Shown here: one piece after another, positions 5,480 through 19,295 of the stretch
How positions within the stretch are numbered: the first letter of the stretch is position 1
How the letters are laid out: every line of letters begins with the position of its first letter
Assembly (NCBI GenBank): GCA_016874795.1
Contig: VGTG01000007.1
Span: 1 to 64,000 of the forward strand
Direction of reading: 5' to 3'
DNA: 64,000 bases
Source: Deltaproteobacteria bacterium
GTDB lineage: Bacteria; Desulfobacterota; Binatia; UBA12015
The notes under the pieces: generated by a model
Database searches by the model: none
The model's input: the letters and a program-made list of their open reading frames with translations, nothing else
Told to the model about the DNA's origin: nothing
Translations under genes and position numbers: made by a program

Positions 5480-6441
5480 GCCGACTCCCGTACGTGCACC
5501 GAAGCGCCCGTGGCAAGGCCGCGACAGACGTTCCAGAGACGCTCGCGCTCGTCCGCCGACTCGTGCGTGAACGGAAGGAGGTGCGTCGTGCGCGGCGTTC
5601 GATCGAACCAGAAGAGACCGCTCTCGCGGCCGGGTGACGCCGCCGTCGCGAGCCAGACGACGGTGTCCGCGCCCTCCGCCGGAGTGCGGAGGCGATGCCG
5701 GAGTAGGCGCCAGAAGCGGGGCAGGGACGTGCGCACGGCCTCGGTGTCCGCCCAGCCCGGGTGCATCGAATGGAAGGAGATCTGCGCGCGGCTTCGCTCG
5801 GCGAGGAGCTCCGCGACGACGACTTGCATCCGCTTCGTCTGCGCGTACGCGACGACGCCGTCGTACGCGCGGCCGCTCCAGTCGAGATCTTCCATCGAGA
5901 GACGCTGCGTGTACATGCCTCCCGAGGACACGAAGATCACGCGCGCGCCGGCGCGGAGCCGCGGCTCGAAGAGGCGCGTCAGGAGGAAGGGCCCCGCGAC
6001 ATGCGTCGCGAACGTGAGCTCGAACCCATCGCGCGTGATGATTCGCTCCGCCGGCAGGACCCCGGCGTTGTGCACGAGTACGTCGACGTGCTCCTCGGCG
6101 AGGCTCGAAGCGAAGGCGCGGACGCTCTCGAGGTCGGAGAGGTCGACGAGGTCGACGAAGACGCGCGCGTTCCCCGTCGCGGCGACGATCGCGCCCTGCG
6201 CGCTCGCGCCGCGCTCGCGGTTCCGGCAGAGGAGATGGACGTGCGCACCACGCTGCGCGAGCTCGGCGGCCGTCGCGAGCCCGATGCCGGAGGAAGCGCC
6301 GGTGACGAGGCAGATCCGGCCGGAGAGGTCGACGTCCAGATCGCGCGGATCGAAGGACCGCGCGTGGCGGGCGAACCCGGAGCGGTCGAAGGAGTAGAGG
6401 ATCGACGCGTCGAGGAGCGCGCCGCGAAGCTCGCTCAGCAC
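5476..6441 (-). CDS. short-chain dehydrogenase/reductase
   Basis: A 321-residue classical SDR. It has TGASSGIG (cofactor loop), the HNAG motif, an SSGGMY block and a YAQTKRM active-site YxxxK. The GTG start overlaps the stop of the upstream methyltransferase (GTGCTGA) and the gene ends in an ATGA overlap with the next one, so it is embedded in the lipid operon. About 45 residues precede the Rossmann fold (LYSFDRSGFARHARSFDPRD), longer than usual, as in dehydrogenase/reductase-SDR homologues linked to retinoid or lipid redox in eukaryotes. A fatty-acyl or isoprenoid carbonyl substrate is inferred from operon context. Cytoplasmic or membrane-associated; no transmembrane helix is seen. Confidence 0.88.
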   Translation of the reverse strand: MLSELRGALLDASILYSFDRSGFARHARSFDPRDLDVDLSGRICLVTGASSGIGLATAAELAQRGAHVHLLCRNRERGASAQGAIVAATGNARVFVDLVDLSDLESVRAFASSLAEEHVDVLVHNAGVLPAERIITRDGFELTFATHVAGPFLLTRLFEPRLRAGARVIFVSSGGMYTQRLSMEDLDWSGRAYDGVVAYAQTKRMQVVVAELLAERSRAQISFHSMHPGWADTEAVRTSLPRFWRLLRHRLRTPAEGADTVVWLATAASPGRESGLFWFDRTPRTTHLLPFTHESADERERLWNVCRGLATGASVHVRESA

Positions 6442-7724
6442 GTGGTGCCTCCCCAGAGCGGCTTCGCGAACAGGAGCTGGACGTCGCCGATGTAGCGCTC
6501 CGCGAAACCGCCTTCGCAGTAGCTGAGGTAGTATTCCCACATCCGAACGAACTCCTCCGAGAACCCGAGTGCGCGAACGCGCGTGAGGTTCGCGAGGAAG
6601 CTCGAGCGCCACTCGCGGAGCGTCCGCGCGTAGTGCGGCGTGATGTCCTCGAGGTCGACGAGCCGCAGGTCCGAACTCCGCGTCGTCGAGTCGAGGAGGG
6701 CCGTGACCGACGGGATGCAGCTCCCCGGGAAGATGTACCGCTTGATGAAATCGGTCGAGCGGCGCGCCTGCTCGTAGCTCTGGTCCTCGATCGTGATCGC
6801 CTGGATCAGCGCGAGCCCGTGCGGCGCGAGACGGTCGGACACGGCGCGGAAGTAGGCGTCGAAGTAGCGATCGCCGACGGCCTCGATCATCTCGATCGAG
6901 ACGAGCTTGTCGAAGGTCCCGTCGAGGTCACGGTAGTCCTTCCGCAGGAGGGTGATCCGATCGGCGAACCCGGCCTCCTGCACGCGTCGCGAAGCGAGAT
7001 CGTGCTGCTCCTGCGAGATCGTCGTCGTGGTGACGCGGCAGCCGAATCGAGAGGCCGCGTGCAGCGCGAGCTCGCCCCAGCCGGTGCCGATCTCCAGCAG
7101 GTGATCTTCGGGGCGGAGCTCGAGCTTGCGGCACACGAGGTCGATCTTGGCGCGGCTCGCCTCCTCGAGCGTCGCTTCCGGAGATTCGAAGTACGCGCAG
7201 GAGTAGCTCATCGTCGGATCGAGGAAGAGCGCGAAGAAGTCGTTGCCGAGGTCGTAGTGGCCGTGGATGTTGCGGCGAGCGCCGCGCCGGGTGTTGCGGC
7301 GGAGCGCTTCCAGGACGCGGAGCTGCGGCGTGCGAAGAGGCGTCCGGAGCGGCTCGCTGCTCTCCCACACACGCCGGTTGCGCGTCAGCAGCCGGACGAG
7401 AGCCGTCAGGTCGTCCGCCGTCCACTCGCCGCGCATGTACGACTCCGCTGCGCCGAGGGTGCCGTGCAGCGCGAGCGAGCGATAGAAGCGCGGCGAGGCG
7501 ACCGTGACCGTCGCGTCCGGGCCCGGCTCCGCGCCCGCGAAGTCGAGCTCTCCCGAGGCGTCGGCGATGCGGATCCGTCCGTACTGGAGGCTCGCGAGCC
7601 GAGAGGAGAGGAGCCGACGTGCGAATCGATCGACGAGCGAGAGCCGCGACCTCTGGGGTGTGACGGCGTCGCGCGCCCCGGCGGGCGTCGAGACGGAAAG
7701 AGCATTCGCATTCGTCGCGTTCAT
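6435..7724 (-). CDS. cyclopropane-fatty-acyl-phospholipid synthase-like methyltransferase
   Basis: A 429-residue protein of the CFA synthase family with the lipid-binding N-terminal domain (about 35-150), HGHYDLGNDFF (154-164), the SAM motif EIGTGWGE (211-218) and the SIEMIEAVG and FIKRYIFPG blocks. The family transfers a methylene or methyl from SAM to the double bond of membrane phospholipid acyl chains. Operon partners (desaturase, FAD oxidoreductase, DUF1365) match sets reported with light- or singlet-oxygen-induced lipid modification, so cyclopropane or methylated/furan fatty acids are both possible. The start is ambiguous: the ATG chosen has AAGGGA 11 nt upstream; a GTG nine bases earlier would overlap the preceding TGA. 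Confidence 0.9.
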   Translation of the reverse strand: MNATNANALSVSTPAGARDAVTPQRSRLSLVDRFARRLLSSRLASLQYGRIRIADASGELDFAGAEPGPDATVTVASPRFYRSLALHGTLGAAESYMRGEWTADDLTALVRLLTRNRRVWESSEPLRTPLRTPQLRVLEALRRNTRRGARRNIHGHYDLGNDFFALFLDPTMSYSCAYFESPEATLEEASRAKIDLVCRKLELRPEDHLLEIGTGWGELALHAASRFGCRVTTTTISQEQHDLASRRVQEAGFADRITLLRKDYRDLDGTFDKLVSIEMIEAVGDRYFDAYFRAVSDRLAPHGLALIQAITIEDQSYEQARRSTDFIKRYIFPGSCIPSVTALLDSTTRSSDLRLVDLEDITPHYARTLREWRSSFLANLTRVRALGFSEEFVRMWEYYLSYCEGGFAERYIGDVQLLFAKPLWGGTTC

Positions 7725-7729
7725 GGCAT

Positions 7730-8554
7730 TCACGATCCCTTCGGTGTCCCGCCCGCTAGCGCGGGATGCGGGAAGAACGGCGCACGCTTCCACCAGAGTC
7801 GAAGAGCTTGCGCGTGGATGGCCGTGATCACACGGCCGGTCATCATCGGATGGCGAAGCAGCACCCGCGCGAGGCCCCGGCCGTCGATCGGGCGGCGATC
7901 GAGGCGCATCGTCGCGTCGAAGAAGCGCCGCCCGCTGGAGAGGCTCTCCATGTGCACGACCAGCCGCTCCGACGGCGCGACGAAGCGCCAATCGTAGTCG
8001 ACGTCCATGCCGATGAAGGGCGAGACGTGGAACGTCTTCGGGAAGTGGAAGCGCAAACGCCGGCTCCCGTCGCGGCGCTCGGCAACCGCGGCGTCGAGCA
8101 CGTAGCAATGACGCTCGCCCCAGGGCGTGTTCGTCACCTCCGCGACGATCGTCTCGAGCTCGCCGCCCGAACGATCGAAGCAATAGTAGAAGCTGACCGG
8201 ATTGAAGCAGTAGCCGCAATAGCGAAGATGGGTCAGGAGCCGGATCGGTCCCTCGGGGCGCCGGCCCGTGTGCTCGCACACGAGGCTCCGGATCGTCTCC
8301 TGCAGAGGCTCTTCTTTCGGTCCGACGTGATCTTCCCGCCGGAAAGCGGCGACGGCGGGGCGGTCGACCGCCCAGAGCCAGCGTCCGGCGAACACGGACG
8401 GAAGCTCGTCGAGATCGAGGTAGAGAAGGAACACGCGGTAGCGGAACGCGTGCTCGATCGGCTCGGTCCGCCGATGGCGCACCCAGCCCTCGTAGAGGCA
8501 GCTCTCTCGTGCGCTCGGGTTCGTCTGTGGGATCGGAAGCACGGTCGCGCTCAT
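7730..8554 (-). CDS. DUF1365 family protein
   Basis: A 274-residue DUF1365 protein. Diagnostic blocks are YEGWVRHRRTEPIEHAFRYR near the N-terminus, LLTHLRYCGYCFNPVSFYYC in the middle, and FHVSPFIGMDVDYDWRF towards the end. No biochemical activity is firmly assigned to this family; it almost always lies between an FAD amine-oxidase-like gene and a CFA-like methyltransferase, as here, so it probably takes part in the same acyl-chain modification. Its ATG overlaps the upstream TGA as ATGA. Conserved Cys, His and Asp residues could bind a metal, but this is not established. Some homologues are annotated as plasmid partitioning proteins, which I consider wrong. Confidence 0.9.
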   Translation of the reverse strand: MSATVLPIPQTNPSARESCLYEGWVRHRRTEPIEHAFRYRVFLLYLDLDELPSVFAGRWLWAVDRPAVAAFRREDHVGPKEEPLQETIRSLVCEHTGRRPEGPIRLLTHLRYCGYCFNPVSFYYCFDRSGGELETIVAEVTNTPWGERHCYVLDAAVAERRDGSRRLRFHFPKTFHVSPFIGMDVDYDWRFVAPSERLVVHMESLSSGRRFFDATMRLDRRPIDGRGLARVLLRHPMMTGRVITAIHAQALRLWWKRAPFFPHPALAGGTPKGS

Positions 8555-9840
8555 CCCGCCGCGGCGAGGACGCGCGCGTCTCTCTCTGCGTCGCGCTCGC
8601 GCCGGGCGGCGAGCGCTTCGACCACGCGCAGCCCGCTCCACATGCCGTCCTCGTGGAAGCCGTATCGCCAGTAGGCGCCGCAGTAGTGCGTCCGGTTTCG
8701 TCCGCTGATCTCCGACCAGCGTGCCTGCGCCGCGGCGCCCTCGAGAGTGAAAACGGGATGGTGGTAGGTGATCCGCCGCAGGACACGCTCCGGCCGGATC
8801 GCGAAGGACGGGTTCAACGTCACGCAGAACTGCTCGGGAGCGTTCAGGCCCTGCAGGTGGTTCATCCAGTAGGTGACCGCGACCGGGCGCTTGGGATCGC
8901 CCGGGACGTGGTAGTTCCAGCTCGCCCAGGCGCGGGGGAGACGCGGCAGGATACTTTCGTCCGTGTGCAGGACCGCTTCGTTCTCCTGGTAGGGGATCGC
9001 GCCGAGCACCGAGCGCTCCGCTTCGCTCGGATCGGCGAGCAAGCGGAGCGCCTGGTCGCTGTGCGTCGCGATCACGACCTCGTCGAAGTGCCGCGGCGGT
9101 CCCTCGTGCGGCACGACGACGACGCCCGTCGCGAGCCGCGCGATCCGGCGCACGCCGGTCCGGAGGTGGATGCGGTCGCGGAACGGCTCGACGAGCCGCT
9201 CGACGTAGCGCTCCGAGCCTCCGAGGACCGTTCGCCAGACGGGCCGGTCGAAGAGCTGGAGGAAGCCGTGATTCTGGAAGAAGCGCACGAAGAAGCGGGC
9301 GGGCATCTCGCTCATCGCTGCCGGGGTCGCGGACCAGATCGCGGCGCCGAGCGGGACGAGAAAGCTCGCGATGAATTGCGGTGAGTAGTCGTTCTGCACG
9401 AGCCAGGTGCGGAGCGGAAGCTCGCCGTCGGCCTCTTCGAGGAGCCGGGGCGACTCGCGCTGGAAGCGGAGCGCGTCCGCCATCATGCGGAGGAACCAGG
9501 GGCGGAAGAGATTCCGCCGCTGCGCGAAGAGCGTGTTGACGGATCGTCCCGACCACTCGAGGCCGGTCCGCCGGCACGAGAGCGAGAAGCTCATGTCGGC
9601 CGCGCGCGAAGCGACGCCGAGCCCGTCGAGCATCGCGTCGAAGTGCGGGTAGGTCCGCCGGTTGAACACGATGAAGCCCGTGTCGACGGAGATCTCTCCG
9701 GCGGCGCTCGGGACCCGGTGGGTATGCGTGTGGCCGCCGATGCGATCGTCCGCTTCGAAGACCTCGACGTCGTGCTCCGCGGAGATCCCGCGGGCGGCGA
9801 CGAGGCCCGAGATGCCCGTGCCGATCACGGCGATCTTCAC
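8551..9840 (-). CDS. FAD-dependent amine-oxidase-like oxidoreductase
   Basis: A 429-residue flavoprotein with an N-terminal dinucleotide fold (KIAVIGTGISGL, G7-x-G9-x-x-G12), then an acidic ribose-binding end (VEVFEADDRIGGHTHT) and the NAD(P)-binding Rossmann/amine oxidase layout. The conserved VDTGFIVFNRRTYPHF block identifies the subfamily that travels with DUF1365 and CFA-like genes. In furan-fatty-acid producers a flavin desaturase acts on the methylated acyl chain; assigning that role here is inference. The GTG start overlaps the desaturase stop (GTGA) and the stop overlaps the next ATG, indicating translational coupling. No signal peptide. Confidence 0.88.
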   Translation of the reverse strand: MKIAVIGTGISGLVAARGISAEHDVEVFEADDRIGGHTHTHRVPSAAGEISVDTGFIVFNRRTYPHFDAMLDGLGVASRAADMSFSLSCRRTGLEWSGRSVNTLFAQRRNLFRPWFLRMMADALRFQRESPRLLEEADGELPLRTWLVQNDYSPQFIASFLVPLGAAIWSATPAAMSEMPARFFVRFFQNHGFLQLFDRPVWRTVLGGSERYVERLVEPFRDRIHLRTGVRRIARLATGVVVVPHEGPPRHFDEVVIATHSDQALRLLADPSEAERSVLGAIPYQENEAVLHTDESILPRLPRAWASWNYHVPGDPKRPVAVTYWMNHLQGLNAPEQFCVTLNPSFAIRPERVLRRITYHHPVFTLEGAAAQARWSEISGRNRTHYCGAYWRYGFHEDGMWSGLRVVEALAARRERDAERDARVLAAAG

Positions 9841-10787
9841 GACGCGACCTCGAGCGCGCGAACCGGTACCGGCCGGAGGTCGCGAACGACGCCGATCCGC
9901 GCGAGGAGCCAGAGCGCGTAGTAGGTGAGGTCGATCTCCCACCACGCGAAGCCCTGTCGCGCCACGCCGGGGAAGCGGTGATGGTTGTTGTGCCAGCCCT
10001 CGCCGAAGGTGAGGAGAGCGAGCCAGAGCGAGTTTCGGCTGTCGTCGCCGGTCGCGAAGCGACGCCGCCCGCGGCCGTGCGCGAGCGAGTTGATCGTGAA
10101 GGTCGCGTGCAGCAGCGCGACCGTCGATACGGCGAATCCCCACACGAGGAGCTGCGCTCCGCTCGTCTCGAGGTGCGGCGCGCCTGCGGCGAGGATCTCT
10201 CCGGCAGCGTAGAGGATCGCCGCGAGGGCGGCGGGGACGGCGACGTCGAAGCGGTCGAGCCAGCGAAGCTCGGGAAAGGCGGCGAGATCCGGCACGCGAT
10301 CGAGCCGCACCGCGAAGTTCTCGCGGGACGTGAGCCAGAAGACGTGGCTCCACCAGAAGCCCCGGCGTCCGGGCGAATGGGGATCTTCGTCGCGGTCCGC
10401 GTGGCGGTGGTGGTGTCGATGGTGCGACGCCCACCAGAGAGGACCGCGCTGTACGGCCGAGGCGCCGAGGATCGCCGCGACGAGCTGCGCGCCCCGCCCG
10501 AGCGAGAACGCACGGTGCGAGAAGTAGCGATGATAGAAGGCGGTGATCGCGAACATGCGGACGACGTAGAGCGCCGCCGCGACGCCGACCGCGGTCGGGC
10601 TCCAGCCGACCCACAGGACGCCGAGGCAGGCCGCATGTAGCGCGACGAAGGGGACGATCCGGACCCAGTCGACCCGGTTCCGATCGGCCGGCGAGGAGCT
10701 CTGGTCCTCGAGCGCCCACGAGTCGAACCAGCGCACGACCGGCGCCAGGCGGCCGACGTCGAGAGGCTTCGTCAAAAGCTCGGACAT
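9837..10787 (-). CDS. acyl-CoA/lipid delta-9-type fatty acid desaturase
   Basis: A 316-residue membrane desaturase with the three histidine boxes of the di-iron family: HRYFSHR (86-92), HHRHHHRH (122-129) and HNNHH (266-270, within EGWHNNHHRFPG). Four hydrophobic segments flank the boxes in the usual order. It introduces a cis double bond into acyl chains, giving the substrate for the CFA-like methyltransferase two genes downstream. It is the first gene of the leftward operon. The ATG has no Shine-Dalgarno sequence and sits 6 nt from the proposed -10 box, so it may be read from a leaderless mRNA. Regulation by the divergent LitR is inferred. Confidence 0.92.
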   Translation of the reverse strand: MSELLTKPLDVGRLAPVVRWFDSWALEDQSSSPADRNRVDWVRIVPFVALHAACLGVLWVGWSPTAVGVAAALYVVRMFAITAFYHRYFSHRAFSLGRGAQLVAAILGASAVQRGPLWWASHHRHHHRHADRDEDPHSPGRRGFWWSHVFWLTSRENFAVRLDRVPDLAAFPELRWLDRFDVAVPAALAAILYAAGEILAAGAPHLETSGAQLLVWGFAVSTVALLHATFTINSLAHGRGRRRFATGDDSRNSLWLALLTFGEGWHNNHHRFPGVARQGFAWWEIDLTYYALWLLARIGVVRDLRPVPVRALEVAS

Positions 10788-10793
10788 GCGGCA

Positions 10794-10870
10794 GCTGTAG
10801 GGTCTTTGTCCGCTTTTGTCAAGTTATGTCCTGGACAAAAGTTGACACACGGGGGAGGGTTCTCTACACG
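10794..10870. promoter_or_regulatory. mirror-image divergent promoters with shared inverted-repeat operator
   Basis: On the plus strand TTGACA (10842-10847), a 17-nt spacer and TACACG (10865-10870) face litR. On the minus strand TTGACA (10817-10822), 17 nt and TACAGC (10794-10799) face the desaturase. Between the -35 boxes sits a perfect inverted repeat, CTTTTGTC (10813-10820) and GACAAAAG (10834-10841), around TGTCCTGGACA. Both -10 boxes end 6-7 nt before an ATG. A LitR/CarH oligomer bound here would block both promoters; that is inference from the family's known dark repression. Confidence 0.7.
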
Positions 10871-10877
10871 AGGAGAC

Positions 10878-11879
10878 ATGAGCGAGAGGAAATCCTCGGG
10901 TGCCTTCCCGGTCCGCACTGCGGCGCGCCTTTCCGGGCTGAGCCCGGACCTGATCCGCGCGTGGGAGCGGCGTTACAAGGTGGTCTCACCGAGTCGCGGC
11001 CCGCGCGGCGCCCGCCTCTATTCCAGCGCGGACATCGAGCACCTGAACCTCCTCGGCGAGGCGGTCGGCGCGGGACGGAGCATCGGGGACGTCGCCGGTC
11101 TCGGCCGGGAAGCGCTTCGCAGCCTCGTCGAGCGCGATCGCGAGTCTCGCGGGCTTCCCGCCCTGGTTGCGGTTTCGCCGCCGGCGAACGCCACCGAATC
11201 GGCCGGCGCGATCGCCGCGAGGGTCCTCGCTGCGGCGCACGCGCTCGCGGCGGTCGACGTGGAGCGCGAGCTCAGCGACGGTCTCGCCGCACTCGGCCGC
11301 GCGCGGTTCGCGCGCGAGCTCGTTCCTCCGCTTCTCCGCGAGGTCGGCGATCGGTGGGCGAAGGGAGAGCTGTCGATCGCCGGCGAGCACCTCGTCTCGA
11401 ATGCGCTCCGGAGCCTGCTCGCCGGACTCGTACGCAGCCGACGAAACGGTACGGGCCCCTCCGTTCTGCTCGCGACGCCGCCTGGCGAGCGGCACGAGTT
11501 CGGTCTCTTCCTCGGCGCGTTCGCCGTGCTCGAGGCGGGCGGCAGCCCGGTCTACCTCGGATGCGAGGTCCCCGCCCGGGAGGTCGGCGTCGCCGCCGTC
11601 TCGGCGAACGTCCGCGCGGTCGGACTGAGCTGCGTCGCGCAGGCAAATCGCACGCGCGCACGCGCCGAGATCCGCGACCTCGAGGGATTGCTCCCGTCGA
11701 ACGTGCTGTTCTGGGTCGGCGGTCGGGAGGCGGAGGCGGTGTGCTCCCCCGGCTCTCGGGCGACGGTCCTGTACGATCTCGCCGCTCTCGAGGAGCGCGT
11801 GCGTCGATGGGCACGCGAAACCGGAGAGCTCGAAGGCACGCTCGAGCGAGAGCTGCTCGCGGAGCGGGAAGGACGATGA
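10878..11879 (+). CDS. litR: LitR/CarH-type MerR regulator with B12-binding photosensor domain
   Basis: A 333-residue regulator with a MerR helix-turn-helix (about 10-80: RTAARLSGLSPDLIRAWERR), a helical cap with W160, E170 and H171 (the W-x9-EH motif), and a Rossmann B12-binding domain with the lower-ligand motif ERHEFG (His206). All signatures of adenosylcobalamin photoreceptors of the CarH/LitR group are present. By family knowledge it is a DNA-bound tetramer in the dark and is released by light. The start follows AGGAG by 3 nt; a longer frame opening 72 nt upstream would run through the operator and is rejected. It heads an operon ending in photolyase and faces the lipid operon, its likely targets. 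Confidence 0.93.
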   Translation: MSERKSSGAFPVRTAARLSGLSPDLIRAWERRYKVVSPSRGPRGARLYSSADIEHLNLLGEAVGAGRSIGDVAGLGREALRSLVERDRESRGLPALVAVSPPANATESAGAIAARVLAAAHALAAVDVERELSDGLAALGRARFARELVPPLLREVGDRWAKGELSIAGEHLVSNALRSLLAGLVRSRRNGTGPSVLLATPPGERHEFGLFLGAFAVLEAGGSPVYLGCEVPAREVGVAAVSANVRAVGLSCVAQANRTRARAEIRDLEGLLPSNVLFWVGGREAEAVCSPGSRATVLYDLAALEERVRRWARETGELEGTLERELLAEREGR

Positions 11880-13252
11880 CGTCCGCCCGCGAGCACGTGT
11901 CCTGGGGCGTCCGTGTCGCCTACGCCGCGCCCGCCTTCGCGATGGCGGTGGTCGGCATTCCGATCTACGTCTACTTGCCGAAGCTCTACACCGACGTCGT
12001 CGGCGTCGAGATGGCGACGGTGGGAGCACTGCTCCTCGGCGCGCGTGTCCTCGACGCCGTGAGCGACCCGTTCGTCGGCGTGCTCTCCGACCGCACGCGC
12101 TCGGCGCTCGGCAGGCGCCGGCCCTGGATCGTCGGCGGAGCGCTCCCGCTCGCCGTCGCGATCGTCTGTCTCTTCCATCCGCCCGAAACGGGACAGGGCG
12201 GGGCGGCGTGGCTCGGCTTCTGGGTGTTCTCGGTCTTCGCCTTCTGGGCGTGCGTGACCGTGCCCTACGAATCGCTCGGTCCCGAGATCACGTTCGACTA
12301 CGACGCGCGCACGAGCCTCCTCGCGGTGCGCGACGGTGCGCTGATCCTCGGGACGCTCGCCGCCGCAATTTCGCCCCTCGTGGTGGAGGCTCTCCTGGAC
12401 CTGCCGGCGACTCCCGCGGGCGAGCGCTCGAAGCTCTTCTGGGTGGCTGCGGCGTGGGGGCCGCTCGTCGTCGCGGCGTGCCTCTGGTGCGCGTACGTCG
12501 TCCGCGAGCCGAGCGCGGCGCCGCCCGCGAGCGCTCCGCGCACGCGCGTCGGGATCGGCGACGCGCTCGCCGCGGTGCGCAGCAATCGGCCGTTCGCGAT
12601 TCTGCTCGCGTCCTACACGGTGAGCGCGCTCGGCAGCAATCTGCCCGCGACGCTGATCCTCTACTACGTCGAGTACGTGCTCGAGGCGCCCTGGGCCGAG
12701 GGCTTTCTCGTCCTCTACTTCGTCACCGGTGTGGCCTTCCTGCCGGCCTGGGTCTGGCTCGCGCGGCGGATCGGCAAGAAGGCGGCGTGGCTCGCCTCGA
12801 TGAGCGTCAACAGCGGCGCGTTCCTCGGCGTCTTCTTCCTCGGCCCGGGGGACGCCGTCGGCTACGGCGTGCTCGTCGCCCTGTCGGGGACGGGCTTCGG
12901 GGCGACGCTCGCGATCGCCTCGTCGATGCAGGCGGACGTGATCGACTACGACGAGCTGCTCTCCGGACGGCGGCGCGAGGGTCTGTACGTCGGCATCTGG
13001 TCGGTCGCGCGCAAGCTCTCGGCGGCGCTCGGCGTCGGGCTCGCGCTGCCGCTGATCGGCGCCGCCGGCTACGTCCCGAACGCCGTGCAGGGGCCCGACG
13101 TGCAGCTCATGCTGCGCGTCCTGTACGCGCTCGTGCCGAGCCTCTGCAACGCCGCCGCGATCGCGATCGCGCTCGCCTACCCGATCTCGCGCGAGCGACA
13201 TCGCGAGATCCTGCTCTCGCTCGGACGCGCGGCGGAGGTGCGCGCCGCATGA
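11876..13252 (+). CDS. MFS transporter, glycoside-pentoside-hexuronide:cation symporter type
   Basis: A 458-residue polytopic membrane protein with about 12 hydrophobic segments. Family marks are the D-x-x-D-P block of the first loop (DAVSDPFVGVLSDRTRSALGRRRPW) and the VTVPYESLGPEIT segment, which place it in the MelB-like GPH group. Such proteins co-transport sugars or other small polar solutes with cations. Members inside LitR/photolyase clusters have no assigned substrate; export of a lipid precursor or carotenoid-related compound is speculation. The ATG overlaps the litR stop (ATGA) and the TGA overlaps the next start, so expression is coupled. Confidence 0.88.
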   Translation: MTSAREHVSWGVRVAYAAPAFAMAVVGIPIYVYLPKLYTDVVGVEMATVGALLLGARVLDAVSDPFVGVLSDRTRSALGRRRPWIVGGALPLAVAIVCLFHPPETGQGGAAWLGFWVFSVFAFWACVTVPYESLGPEITFDYDARTSLLAVRDGALILGTLAAAISPLVVEALLDLPATPAGERSKLFWVAAAWGPLVVAACLWCAYVVREPSAAPPASAPRTRVGIGDALAAVRSNRPFAILLASYTVSALGSNLPATLILYYVEYVLEAPWAEGFLVLYFVTGVAFLPAWVWLARRIGKKAAWLASMSVNSGAFLGVFFLGPGDAVGYGVLVALSGTGFGATLAIASSMQADVIDYDELLSGRRREGLYVGIWSVARKLSAALGVGLALPLIGAAGYVPNAVQGPDVQLMLRVLYALVPSLCNAAAIAIALAYPISRERHREILLSLGRAAEVRAA

Positions 13253-14724
13253 GTGCCGAGCCCGTGATCCTTCTCACCGGTGCGACCGGCTACGTCGGTG
13301 GCCGGTTGCTGCGCGCCCTCGAGGCGAGCGGGCGGCGCGTTCGCTGCATGGCGCGGCGTCCCGAGAACCTGCGCGCCTGGGTCGGTCCCGGCACCGAGAT
13401 CGTCCGCGGCGACTGCCTCGAGTGCGCTTCGCTCGACGGCGCGCTCGCCGGAGTAGAGTCCGCCTACTACCTCGTGCACTCGATGGGCGCCGGCGCGGAC
13501 TTCGAGGAGCGCGACCGTCGCTGCGCGCGCCACTTCGGCGAGGCCGCGCGTGCGGCCGGCGTCAAGCGGATCTTCTACCTCGGCGGCCTCGGCGACGGCG
13601 GCGCGGAGCTCTCGGCGCACCTGCGGAGCCGCCAGGAGACCGGCGAGGTGCTGCGCGCCGCCTCGGGCCTGCCCGTGATCGAGCTTCGTGCCTCGATCGT
13701 GCTCGGTACCGGGAGTCTCTCGTTCGAGCTCATCCGCTCGCTCGTCGAGCGTCTTCCCGTGATGCTCTGCCCGCGCTGGGTCGAGACCGAAGCGCAGCCG
13801 ATCGCGATCGACGATCTCGTCGCGTACCTTCTCGCGGCGCTCGATCTGCCGGCCGAGAGCCGGATCCTCGAGGTCGGCGGTGCGGACCGCGTCTCGTACG
13901 GTGACATCATGCGGGAGTACGCGCGCCAGCGCGGCCTCCGCCGTGTCATGATCCCCGTGCCGGTGCTGACACCGAGACTCTCGAGCCTCTGGCTCGGCCT
14001 CACGACGCCGCTCTACGCGCGAGTCGGACGGAAGCTCATCGAGGGCGTCCGCAACCCGACCGTCGTTCGCGACGGCGCGGCGCGGCGCGCGTTCCCGTCG
14101 ATCCGGCCGATCGGTCTCCGCGAGGCGATCGCGCGTGCGATGGCGAACGAGGACCGCACCCTGGCGCGATGGTCGGCGGCGCTCTCGTCGTCGGGAATCG
14201 ACTCGAAAGTCTCCGGAGGCCGGCACTTCGGGCCACGCTTGATCGATTCGCGCGCTCTGCGCGTTGCGGCCACGCCGGAGCAGGCCTTCGCCCCGATTCG
14301 GGAGATCGGCGGCGAGCGCGGCTGGTACTACGCCGATTTTCTCTGGCGCTTGCGCGGCTTCCTCGACTTGCTCGCGGGAGGCGTCGGCATGCGCCGCGGC
14401 CGGCGCGACCCGGAGTCGCTCGTCGTCGGCGACGCGCTCGACTTCTGGCGCGTCGAGGCCTACGAGCCCGACCGCCGCCTGCGTCTCGCCGCCGAGATGC
14501 GGCTCCCCGGACGCGCCTGGCTCGAGTTCGAGGTGCGACGGAGTGGCGGCGAGACGGTGATCTGCCAGACGGCGGAGTTCGATCCGGTCGGCGTCGCCGG
14601 GAGGCTCTACTGGTACGGAATCTACCCGCTGCACGCGCTGGTGTTCCGCGGCATGCTCCGTGGCATCGCCGCGCGCGCCGCTGCGCACCCGAGCGCAGCG
14701 GCGTCCGCTCCCGGACGTCGATGA
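13249..14724 (+). CDS. NAD(P)-binding SDR with C-terminal DUF2867 domain
   Basis: A 491-residue protein. The N-terminal half is an NmrA/atypical-SDR Rossmann fold (VILLTGATGYVGGRLL; YYLVHSMGAG; RIFYLGGLGD), and the last 160 residues are DUF2867 (GWYYADFLWRLRGFLDLLAGG; LDFWRVEAYEPDRRLRLAAEM). DUF2867 resembles an SRPBCC-like ligand pocket, so this gene mirrors the SDR-SRPBCC fusion that ends the divergent operon. The reaction is unknown. The first coupling (ATGA with the MFS stop) and second coupling (ATGA with photolyase) put it firmly in the litR operon. No membrane segment. Confidence 0.88.
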   Translation: MSAEPVILLTGATGYVGGRLLRALEASGRRVRCMARRPENLRAWVGPGTEIVRGDCLECASLDGALAGVESAYYLVHSMGAGADFEERDRRCARHFGEAARAAGVKRIFYLGGLGDGGAELSAHLRSRQETGEVLRAASGLPVIELRASIVLGTGSLSFELIRSLVERLPVMLCPRWVETEAQPIAIDDLVAYLLAALDLPAESRILEVGGADRVSYGDIMREYARQRGLRRVMIPVPVLTPRLSSLWLGLTTPLYARVGRKLIEGVRNPTVVRDGAARRAFPSIRPIGLREAIARAMANEDRTLARWSAALSSSGIDSKVSGGRHFGPRLIDSRALRVAATPEQAFAPIREIGGERGWYYADFLWRLRGFLDLLAGGVGMRRGRRDPESLVVGDALDFWRVEAYEPDRRLRLAAEMRLPGRAWLEFEVRRSGGETVICQTAEFDPVGVAGRLYWYGIYPLHALVFRGMLRGIAARAAAHPSAAASAPGRR

Positions 14725-16199
14725 CCATCGCGCTGCACTGGTTCCGGCGCGACCTGCGGCTCGCCGACAACACGGCGCTCACCGAGGCGCAGCGGCGGGC
14801 GGACGAGGTCGTGCCGGTTTTCGTGCTCGACTCGCACCTGCTTCGCCGCGAGGACATGGGAGCGTCGCGCGTCTCGTTCCTCCTCGAATCCTTGACCCTC
14901 CTCGGCCGGGACCTGGAGGAGCGCGGCTCGTTGCTCCTCCTGCTCGAGGGCGATCCGGCCGCGCGGCTCGCGGAGCTCGTGCGCGCGACGGGAGCGAAGC
15001 TCGTCACTGCGAATCGCGACCACAGTCCCTACGCCCGCCGCCGCGACGCCGCCGTGCGTCGCGCGATCGAGCGCGAGGGCGCCACATGGCTCGACTTCAA
15101 GGACCAGCTCCTCGTCGAGCCCGACGAGTGCCGCAAGGACGACGGCGCCCCGTACACCGTCTTCACGCCGTTCGCGCGCCGCTGGCGGTTGATCGAGAAG
15201 GAGCTCCCGCAGCGTGCGCCGCGGCTGCGCTCGCTCTCGCCCGATCTGCGAGAGCGTCTCGTCTCGCAGCCGATCCCATCTCTGGGCGAGCTCGGCTTCG
15301 GCCTCGAAGCGGACATCGAGCCCGGCGGCGAGCGACAGGCGAAGAAGCGCCTCGCGACGTTCGTCGAGGAGCGACTCCTCGCGTACGCGGGCGATCGCAA
15401 CGCGCCGGCTCTCGACGGCACGTCGCACCTCTCGGCGCATCTCAAGTTCGGGACGATCTCGCCTCGACGCGTCTACGGCGACGTGCGCGGGGCGATCGGC
15501 GACGAGCTCGCGAACCTCGATCCGGCGCGTCCGCCGGCTTCTCTGGGCGCCGCGGAGCGCGACCGCTTGCGTGAGGGCGGCACCTTCCTGAACGAGCTTT
15601 GCTGGCGCGAGTTCTACCAGGCGATCCTGTTCCACTTCCCACACGTCGTCAGCGGCCCGTTCCGCCGCGGCTTCGCGAAGCTGCGCTGGCCCGGGGACGA
15701 CCCTTCGTTGATCGAGGCGTGGCGCGAGGGGCGGACAGGCTTCCCGATCGTCGACGCCGGCATGCGCCAGCTCGCGCAGACGGGCTGGATGCACAATCGC
15801 CTTCGGATGATCACGGCGACGTTCCTCACGAAGACGCTCCTCGTCGACTGGCGCGTAGGCGAGCGGATCTTCCTGCAGCGCTTGACCGACGGCGACGTCG
15901 CAGCGAACAACGGCGGCTGGCAGTGGTGCGCCTCGACGGGGACCGACGCCTCGCCGTACTTCCGGATTTTCAACCCGACCCTGCAGTCGAAGAAGTTCGA
16001 TCCGAAGGGGGAATTTCTCCGGCGTTTCATTCCGGAGCTGCGCCGCATCGGCGACGAGCTCGTGCACGAGCCGTGGCGGAAGCCGCGCGTCCTCGAGGAG
16101 ATCGGCTACCCGCCGCCGTGCGTCGACTACGCGGCGCAGCGCGAGCGCGCGCTGGCACTGCTCGCACCGTTCGCCCGCGGCAGCGCAATTTCCGAGTGA
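14721..16199 (+). CDS. phrB: class I deoxyribodipyrimidine photolyase
   Basis: A 492-residue photolyase that uses blue light to split cyclobutane pyrimidine dimers through FADH-. The N-terminal antenna domain starts ALHWFRRDLRLADNTAL. The C-terminal FAD domain has FLNELCWREFYQAILFHFP, TGFPIVDAGMRQLAQTGWMH and GDVAANNGGWQWCASTGTD, including the tryptophans of the electron-transfer chain. Length and motifs match E. coli PhrB-like CPD photolyases rather than (6-4) or DASH enzymes. It is the last gene of the litR operon, fitting a light-induced repair function. The ATG overlaps the preceding stop. Confidence 0.95.
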   Translation: MTIALHWFRRDLRLADNTALTEAQRRADEVVPVFVLDSHLLRREDMGASRVSFLLESLTLLGRDLEERGSLLLLLEGDPAARLAELVRATGAKLVTANRDHSPYARRRDAAVRRAIEREGATWLDFKDQLLVEPDECRKDDGAPYTVFTPFARRWRLIEKELPQRAPRLRSLSPDLRERLVSQPIPSLGELGFGLEADIEPGGERQAKKRLATFVEERLLAYAGDRNAPALDGTSHLSAHLKFGTISPRRVYGDVRGAIGDELANLDPARPPASLGAAERDRLREGGTFLNELCWREFYQAILFHFPHVVSGPFRRGFAKLRWPGDDPSLIEAWREGRTGFPIVDAGMRQLAQTGWMHNRLRMITATFLTKTLLVDWRVGERIFLQRLTDGDVAANNGGWQWCASTGTDASPYFRIFNPTLQSKKFDPKGEFLRRFIPELRRIGDELVHEPWRKPRVLEEIGYPPPCVDYAAQRERALALLAPFARGSAISE

Positions 16200-18695: not shown

Positions 18696-19088
18696 TCAGA
18701 ACAGCTCGAGATCGAGGCTCGCCGCCTTCGCGATCGTCACGAAGTCCCGGTCCCGCGTCAGTAGGCGATGGTGAGCGTCGGCAGCGGAGAGCGCGATGAT
18801 CAGGTCGATCAGGTGAGCCTGGCAGCCTTGGCGAGCGAGCGAAAAGCGTAGCATCGCAACGCGCGGCCATGCATCGCGCGGCTCGGGTAGCGTCGAAAGC
18901 GCGCGAAAGCGGCTCGCCAGGTCGTCGAACGTCGCTCGCGTCCGCGCTCCCGAGACGACTTCCGCAGCGATGATCGGCGTCGTCGCGACGCGATCCTCCG
19001 CGAGAAGCCCATCGATGCGCCGAACCGCCTCCGCTCGCCCGCGGAAGAAGTCGATCCACGCCGAGCTGTCGACGAGAACGTCGCTCAA
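18696..19088 (-). CDS. vapC: VapC-type PIN-domain toxin
   Basis: A 130-residue PIN-domain ribonuclease. The acidic residues of the active site appear in order: the aspartate of VLVDSSAWIDFFRG, the glutamate of IIAAEVVSG, and aspartates in AHLIDLIIALSAAD and LLTRDRDF. VapC toxins cleave specific tRNAs or rRNA and are held inactive by the cognate VapB. The start is a TTG whose bases overlap the vapB stop (TTGA), a coupling typical of these pairs; no ATG is available without discarding the first catalytic strand. Confidence 0.9.
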   Translation of the reverse strand: MSDVLVDSSAWIDFFRGRAEAVRRIDGLLAEDRVATTPIIAAEVVSGARTRATFDDLASRFRALSTLPEPRDAWPRVAMLRFSLARQGCQAHLIDLIIALSAADAHHRLLTRDRDFVTIAKAASLDLELF

Positions 19089-19288
19089 CGCTTGCCCTTT
19101 CGGCCGCGTGATCTCTCGAGGTCGACGTCGAGATCGATCTTGCCGGCGAGCTGGCGGAGCTGCTCGCGATGACCCTTTCGGATCAGCTCCTCGAGCCCTG
19201 CGGTCAGCGTCTCTTGCTTCGTGCGGAAGTGCCAAAGGCGACGTGCTTGCTCGAGAAGCTCCTCGGGGAGATCGACGGTCGTGCGCAT
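19085..19288 (-). CDS. vapB: VapB-type antitoxin
   Basis: A 67-residue antitoxin of the DUF2191/VapB group. It opens with a ribbon-helix-helix-like N-terminus (RTTVDLPEELLEQARRLW), then a linker (TKQETLTAGLEELIRK) and a basic tail (RSRGRKGKR). It should bind and neutralise VapC and, with it, repress its own promoter. The ATG follows GAGAG. The start lies 7 nt from a perfect 9-bp inverted repeat that is the obvious operator. The gene overlaps vapC by 4 nt. Confidence 0.88.
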   Translation of the reverse strand: MRTTVDLPEELLEQARRLWHFRTKQETLTAGLEELIRKGHREQLRQLAGKIDLDVDLERSRGRKGKR

Positions 19289-19295
19289 CTCTCAT

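Follow-up and report, generated by a model that had tools for sequence, protein, structure and literature searches.

The 90-bp gap between divergent genes for a fatty-acid desaturase and a LitR/CarH-type regulator is probably a bidirectional, light-responsive CarH/LitR control region from which both mRNAs are made without leaders. It lies in the window analysed here, the first 64,000 nt of contig VGTG01000007.1 (assembly GCA_016874795.1, Deltaproteobacteria bacterium). From the anatomy of the gap, its conservation in relatives, the statistical excess of 6-nt discriminators, and the domains and B12 motifs of the adjacent regulator, we infer the sites of transcription initiation, the binding of LitR and its response to light and B12. 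In the dark, AdoCbl-bound LitR would oligomerise on an array of GACA half-sites; the TTGACA sites on both flanks of the dyad would serve as -35 boxes, and LitR would block RNA polymerase on both sides, repressing its own gene as well as a membrane-lipid operon. Light would break AdoCbl and cause LitR to leave the DNA, a release expected to switch on the photolyase of the litR operon together with lipid-modifying enzymes. Both mRNAs would have their 5' ends at the start codon or no more than about 2 nt from it, and be translated leaderless. The mirror relation of the two promoters would follow from the dyad form of the operator, in which the outer half-sites also act as -35 hexamers.

Direct reading of positions 10500-11200 places the desaturase ATG (10787, minus strand) and the litR ATG (10878, plus strand) back to back. 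Every element of the near-mirror promoters named in the original prediction, TTGACA-N17-TACACG and TTGACA-N17-TACAGC, is present at 10794-10870 (Table 1): both TTGACA hexamers are perfect, both spacers measure 17 nt, and the -10 boxes, claimed to lie 6-7 nt from an ATG, do so at 7 nt for litR and 6 nt for the desaturase. With 3/6 matches each to TATAAT, TACAGC and TACACG are weak -10 boxes, and a standard sigma-70 scan of the gap detected neither promoter because both boxes lack T at position 6. No other promoter-like site was found in the gap. Among 20,000 dinucleotide shuffles of the 90 bp, both TTGACA-N16-18-TA promoters co-occurred in 0.005% (5e-5), and three GACA pairs spaced by 10/11 bp arose in none. 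The desaturase start, described earlier as devoid of a ribosome site, reads CTACAGCTGCCGC-ATG and indeed has no Shine-Dalgarno sequence; an AGGAG precedes the litR ATG at a spacing of just 2 nt, within the predicted discriminator.

Table 1. Features of the divergent control region and its flanking operons (window coordinates)
Feature	Position	Strand	Basis or remark
Cyclopropane-synthase-type SAM methyltransferase, UfaM/Cfa-like	6435..7724	-	Pfam CMAS 1.8e-88
DUF1365 protein, UfaO-type domain	7730..8554	-	Pfam 8.5e-86
FAD/NAD-binding amine-oxidase-family oxidoreductase, UfaD-like position	8551..9840	-	Pfam, start check
Fatty-acid desaturase gene, first of divergent operon	9837..10787	-	Pfam FA_desaturase 1.2e-23
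Predicted -10 box of desaturase operon, TACAGC	10794..10799	-	Ends 6 nt 5' of ATG 10787
Three leftward GACA half-sites (TGTC at 10807, 10817, 10827)	10807..10830	-	10-bp period
Inverted repeat of the original prediction, centre 10827	10813..10841		Real but off-register
Predicted -35 box of desaturase operon, TTGACA, also a leftward half-site	10817..10822	-	Sequence reading
Predicted main operator dyad, TGTCAAGTTATGTCC-T-GGACAAAAGTTGACA, centre 10832	10817..10847		13/15 pairs symmetric
Two rightward GACA half-sites (10834, 10844)	10834..10847	+	10-bp period
Predicted -35 box of litR, TTGACA, the outer right half-site	10842..10847	+	Sequence reading; kept in relatives
Predicted -10 box of litR, TACACG	10865..10870	+	Ends 7 nt 5' of ATG 10878
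litR/carH-type regulator gene (MerR HTH + B12-binding_2 + B12-binding)	10878..11879	+	Pfam, alignment, PDB match
GPH-type MFS transporter	11876..13252	+	Overlaps litR stop
NAD-binding/DUF2867 protein	13249..14724	+	
DNA photolyase	14721..16199	+	Pfam

The product of the rightward gene has the domain order of class I CarH/LitR proteins, a MerR HTH followed by B12-binding_2 and B12-binding. MerR_1 and B12-binding_2 score above their Pfam cut-offs and B12-binding below its own (E 1.6e-5). Both AdoCbl motifs are present, Wx9EH as W160..EH170-171 and ExHxxG as ERHEFG at 204-209, and the protein matches the CarH structure 5c8d in the PDB with E 4.5e-28. Since it scores 121.4 bits against the 400-bit cut-off of the NCBIfam CarH equivalog, we classify it as a CarH homologue and not as an equivalog. 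Domains, motifs and CarH match thus agree with the earlier proposal that a LitR-type B12 photoreceptor is the likely regulator.

The gap contains five GACA half-sites, three facing leftward and two rightward, exactly 10 bp apart within each set. Nowhere else in the 6.27-Mb genome does the motif GACA-N6-GACA-N6-GACA occur. About the centre at 10832, each -35 box mirrors the other exactly. The outermost leftward half-site (10807) falls in the spacer of the desaturase promoter, where it might tighten repression on the desaturase side. As in CarH operators, the -35 is embedded in a TnnACA direct-repeat array, here with TTGACA inside the GACA arrays of both strands; the repeats differ in having a period of 10 bp instead of 11 bp and in running in two orientations rather than one. 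The gap is a predicted CarH-type operator of a new sub-type. A search of the whole genome for further LitR targets with GACA-N4-TTGACA found none: the pattern occurs in this gap, on both strands, and at one site on contig 206 that has no promoter-like context. Two other Binatia genomes (L079 and L094) have a GACA-N4-TTGACA operator too, in front of an FAD-oxidoreductase-like gene and of a gene close to litR.

Searching about 200 whole genomes from the window's own class, and a species genome collection, for relatives of LitR yielded about 100 related loci; the nearest named matches are Candidatus Binatia. When upstream regions are aligned on the -35, the same array design recurs. For same-strand GACA pairs the spacing is 11 bp in 37 of 95 loci and 10 bp in 15, where about 0.5 would be expected; in the same 95 loci, start-to-start distances of convergent TGTC..GACA cluster at 6-7, 16-18 and 26-29. 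The central TGTC/GACA gap is tightly fixed at 2-3 bp, and the general form of the array across relatives is TGTC-11-TGTC-6/7-GACA-11-GACA. Many of the promoters found use the outer half-site as the -35 of litR. The period is 11 bp in most clades. On the LitR protein tree the 10-bp period characterizes the Binatia clade of the window's own LitR, 10 of whose 11 members have it (the eleventh has no GACA pair), along with a few rows elsewhere, and the period clusters strongly on the tree (none of 500 shuffles gave as low a value). Members of this clade share the DNA-binding wing RGPRGARLY or a close variant, others having RTPGGHRLY-like sequences; because a single clade is involved, the association between wing and period is a correlation only. 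The wing is not required, since a 10-bp GACA pair is present without RGPRGARLY at locus L009, which belongs to another Binatia clade. The idea that the length between the DNA-binding and B12 domains sets the period was rejected, as loci with 10-bp and with 11-bp spacing have overlapping ranges of this length.

These comparisons bear on how the operator is read. The original prediction took it to be the inverted repeat formed by CTTTTGTC (10813-10820) and GACAAAAG (10834-10841). That repeat exists, its arms being perfect complements over 8 bp, and the left -35 does overlap its left arm while the right -35 abuts its right arm, as had been stated; its role as operator is not supported, for it is off-register in the GACA array and less symmetric than the dyad at 10832 (12/18 against 14/18 when 18 positions per side are compared). 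A classical MerR-type site, CTTTTGTC-N13-GACAAAAG, occupied by one LitR dimer would accord with the usual binding of MerR proteins to pseudo-palindromes (PMC8156234), but a centre at 10827 leaves the -35 boxes asymmetric, and what relatives conserve is the 10/11-bp GACA spacing and the 2-3 bp central gap, not the 8-bp repeat. Published work on CarH (PMC9304148) replaced an earlier inverted-repeat model by direct repeats, which are reported for both CarH and CarA. We regard the single-dimer site as highly improbable.

It is also conceivable, if rather unlikely, that two one-directional CarH operators lie side by side, three leftward half-sites serving the desaturase and two rightward ones litR, each with an oligomer of its own. 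Such an arrangement would give each promoter one set of half-sites, and the leftward set, with its three repeats, is similar to the tandem array of three at Thermus CarH. Two independent operators are hard to square, however, with central gaps fixed at 2-3 bp and with loci L004 and L005, where litR is preceded by a photolyase gene running in the same direction and the two-way array is still present. Because the array is kept there without a divergent neighbour, the mirror promoters appear to follow from the operator of the repressor. The dyad would thus be a property of the repressor's own operator, and any gene on the opposite side seems to use the outer half-site as its -35. Desaturase genes divergent from litR are found in the Acidobacteriota loci L179, L123 and L132 as well.

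The prediction of leaderless or near-leaderless starts gains comparative support, far stronger than one sequence could give, from the position of promoters in other litR loci. Requiring at least 5/6 matches at -35, TA plus at least 3/6 at -10, and an in-frame ATG or GTG start, we found the distance from -10 to start in 98 litR loci to be 6 nt in 20, 7 nt in 5 and 8 nt in 3, with about one locus at most other distances. In control ORFs of the same loci these spacings occur in 0, 1 and 2 of 618. The resulting contrast, 28/98 against 3/618 (Fisher p ~5e-23), is an upper estimate because spurious ORFs and genes inside operons are among the controls; restricted to promoter-start pairs, it is 28/59 against 3/34 (p ~1e-4), and both p-values are guides rather than exact probabilities because the loci are related by descent. 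The 6-8 nt spacing in litR spans at least eight phyla, the groups represented being Binatota, Acidobacteriota, Gemmatimonadota, Latescibacterota, Krumholzibacteriota, KSB1, Myxococcota/delta, Desulfobacteraceae and Gammaproteobacteria.

Leaderless transcripts may be common in the organism from which the window derives: 17 of 76 TTGACA-N16-18-TA sites in its genome have an ATG 6-8 nt downstream, and the reversed pattern has none. The notion that litR merely mirrors such a genomic habit was set aside; in eight other litR genomes an ATG lies 6-8 nt past 45 of 570 consensus promoters, a background above which litR stands out by far. Divergent partners are less consistent than litR in this respect. 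Divergent or target promoters place the -10 at 6 nt from the ATG in L007 and L094, 6-7 nt in L002, 7 nt in L009 and L110, and about 7 nt, with a weaker -10, in L079; in L179, L123 and L139, which have a mirrored divergent -35, no ATG was found 6-8 nt after the divergent -10. Nor is leaderlessness universal for litR, given gaps of 19 nt in L003 and 27 nt in L033, both from the window's clade. Such relatives with gaps of 19-27 nt, the AGGAG just 5' of the litR ATG, and the leaders of 48-51 nt at class II LitR targets in Pseudomonas (PMC9758184) would fit transcripts that are not leaderless, with litR expressed from an upstream or weaker promoter through a short leader that uses AGGAG. That we consider distinctly unlikely, as only 2 nt separate this Shine-Dalgarno from the ATG, the gap offers no second promoter candidate, and the cross-phylum excess at exactly 6 nt is hard to explain with a leadered litR.

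One of the closest known counterparts is the operator at the carH/litR promoter of Thermus thermophilus, on pTT27, whose CarH protein has been structurally solved. The promoter sequence in strain HB27 is TTGACA-N17-TACCCT-N6-ATG, and its tandem ACA repeats recur every 11 bp. It shares with our gap the TTGACA -35 within an ACA array, the N17 spacer and a -10 placed 6 nt before the ATG; the regulators have the same domains, and the Thermus gene, too, is divergent, from a carotenoid gene. The Thermus operator has three repeats in one orientation at 11 bp, in contrast to the 3+2 half-sites in two orientations at 10 bp described here. According to PMC9304148 and PMC8156234, the CarH/CarA operators of Myxococcales likewise embed a TTGACA -35 in a repeat and have a weak -10 (TACCTC), and those of Sorangiineae also sit between divergent genes, but their tandem repeats are of 11 bp and their targets are carotenoid genes; no discussion of leaderlessness was found in the accessible portions of these two accounts. 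Class II LitR proteins of Pseudomonas (PplR/PmlR) adjoin and control similar genes, including photolyase, short-chain dehydrogenase, FAD oxidoreductase and UfaM types; they differ in binding TGTACA-N12-TGTACA, in having a LOV partner and in start sites that were mapped well upstream of the ATG (PMC9758184).

Downstream of litR, the overlapping stop and start codons of 11876-16199 suggest one autorepressed operon. The gene set at 6435-9840 resembles furan fatty acid genes and may make a light-protective lipid. The enzyme types are those of ufaM, ufaD and ufaO of Rhodobacter sphaeroides, a SAM methylase, an NAD/FAD desaturase-like protein and a DUF1365 protein (PMC7380195); the R. sphaeroides genes are linked to ChrR, whereas the present set lies beside a predicted B12 photoreceptor gene. 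Further along, an ORF at 18696-19295 encodes a PIN-domain-like sequence (VLVDSSAWIDFFRG), judged by eye, and is possibly a VapC-type toxin.

Repression by CarH from repeats overlapping the -35 and operators at divergent promoters were already known (PMC9304148, PMC8156234). For a two-way 10-bp array or a leaderless litR across phyla we found no description in the open-access literature; none was found there on leaderless carH itself either, and an earlier mention for Thermus is possible. Since the same design lies upstream of litR in many bacterial phyla, the arrangement is more than a local oddity. We tentatively propose, as something a little short of an even chance, that a leaderless litR is a conserved trait of many phyla and that in Binatia the operator shifted from 11 to 10 bp in a two-way (3+2) form, together with the clade-specific wing RGPRGARLY, implying a re-arranged oligomer that uses both half-site orientations. 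Published CarH operators have one orientation and an 11-bp period, and the outward-facing pairs of direct repeats seen here would combine the inverted- and direct-repeat models. The two-way arrays across phyla and the 10-bp clade offer a natural test of how CarH oligomers read DNA, and a conserved leaderless start of the repressor, if true, would connect light sensing with a non-canonical way of starting translation.
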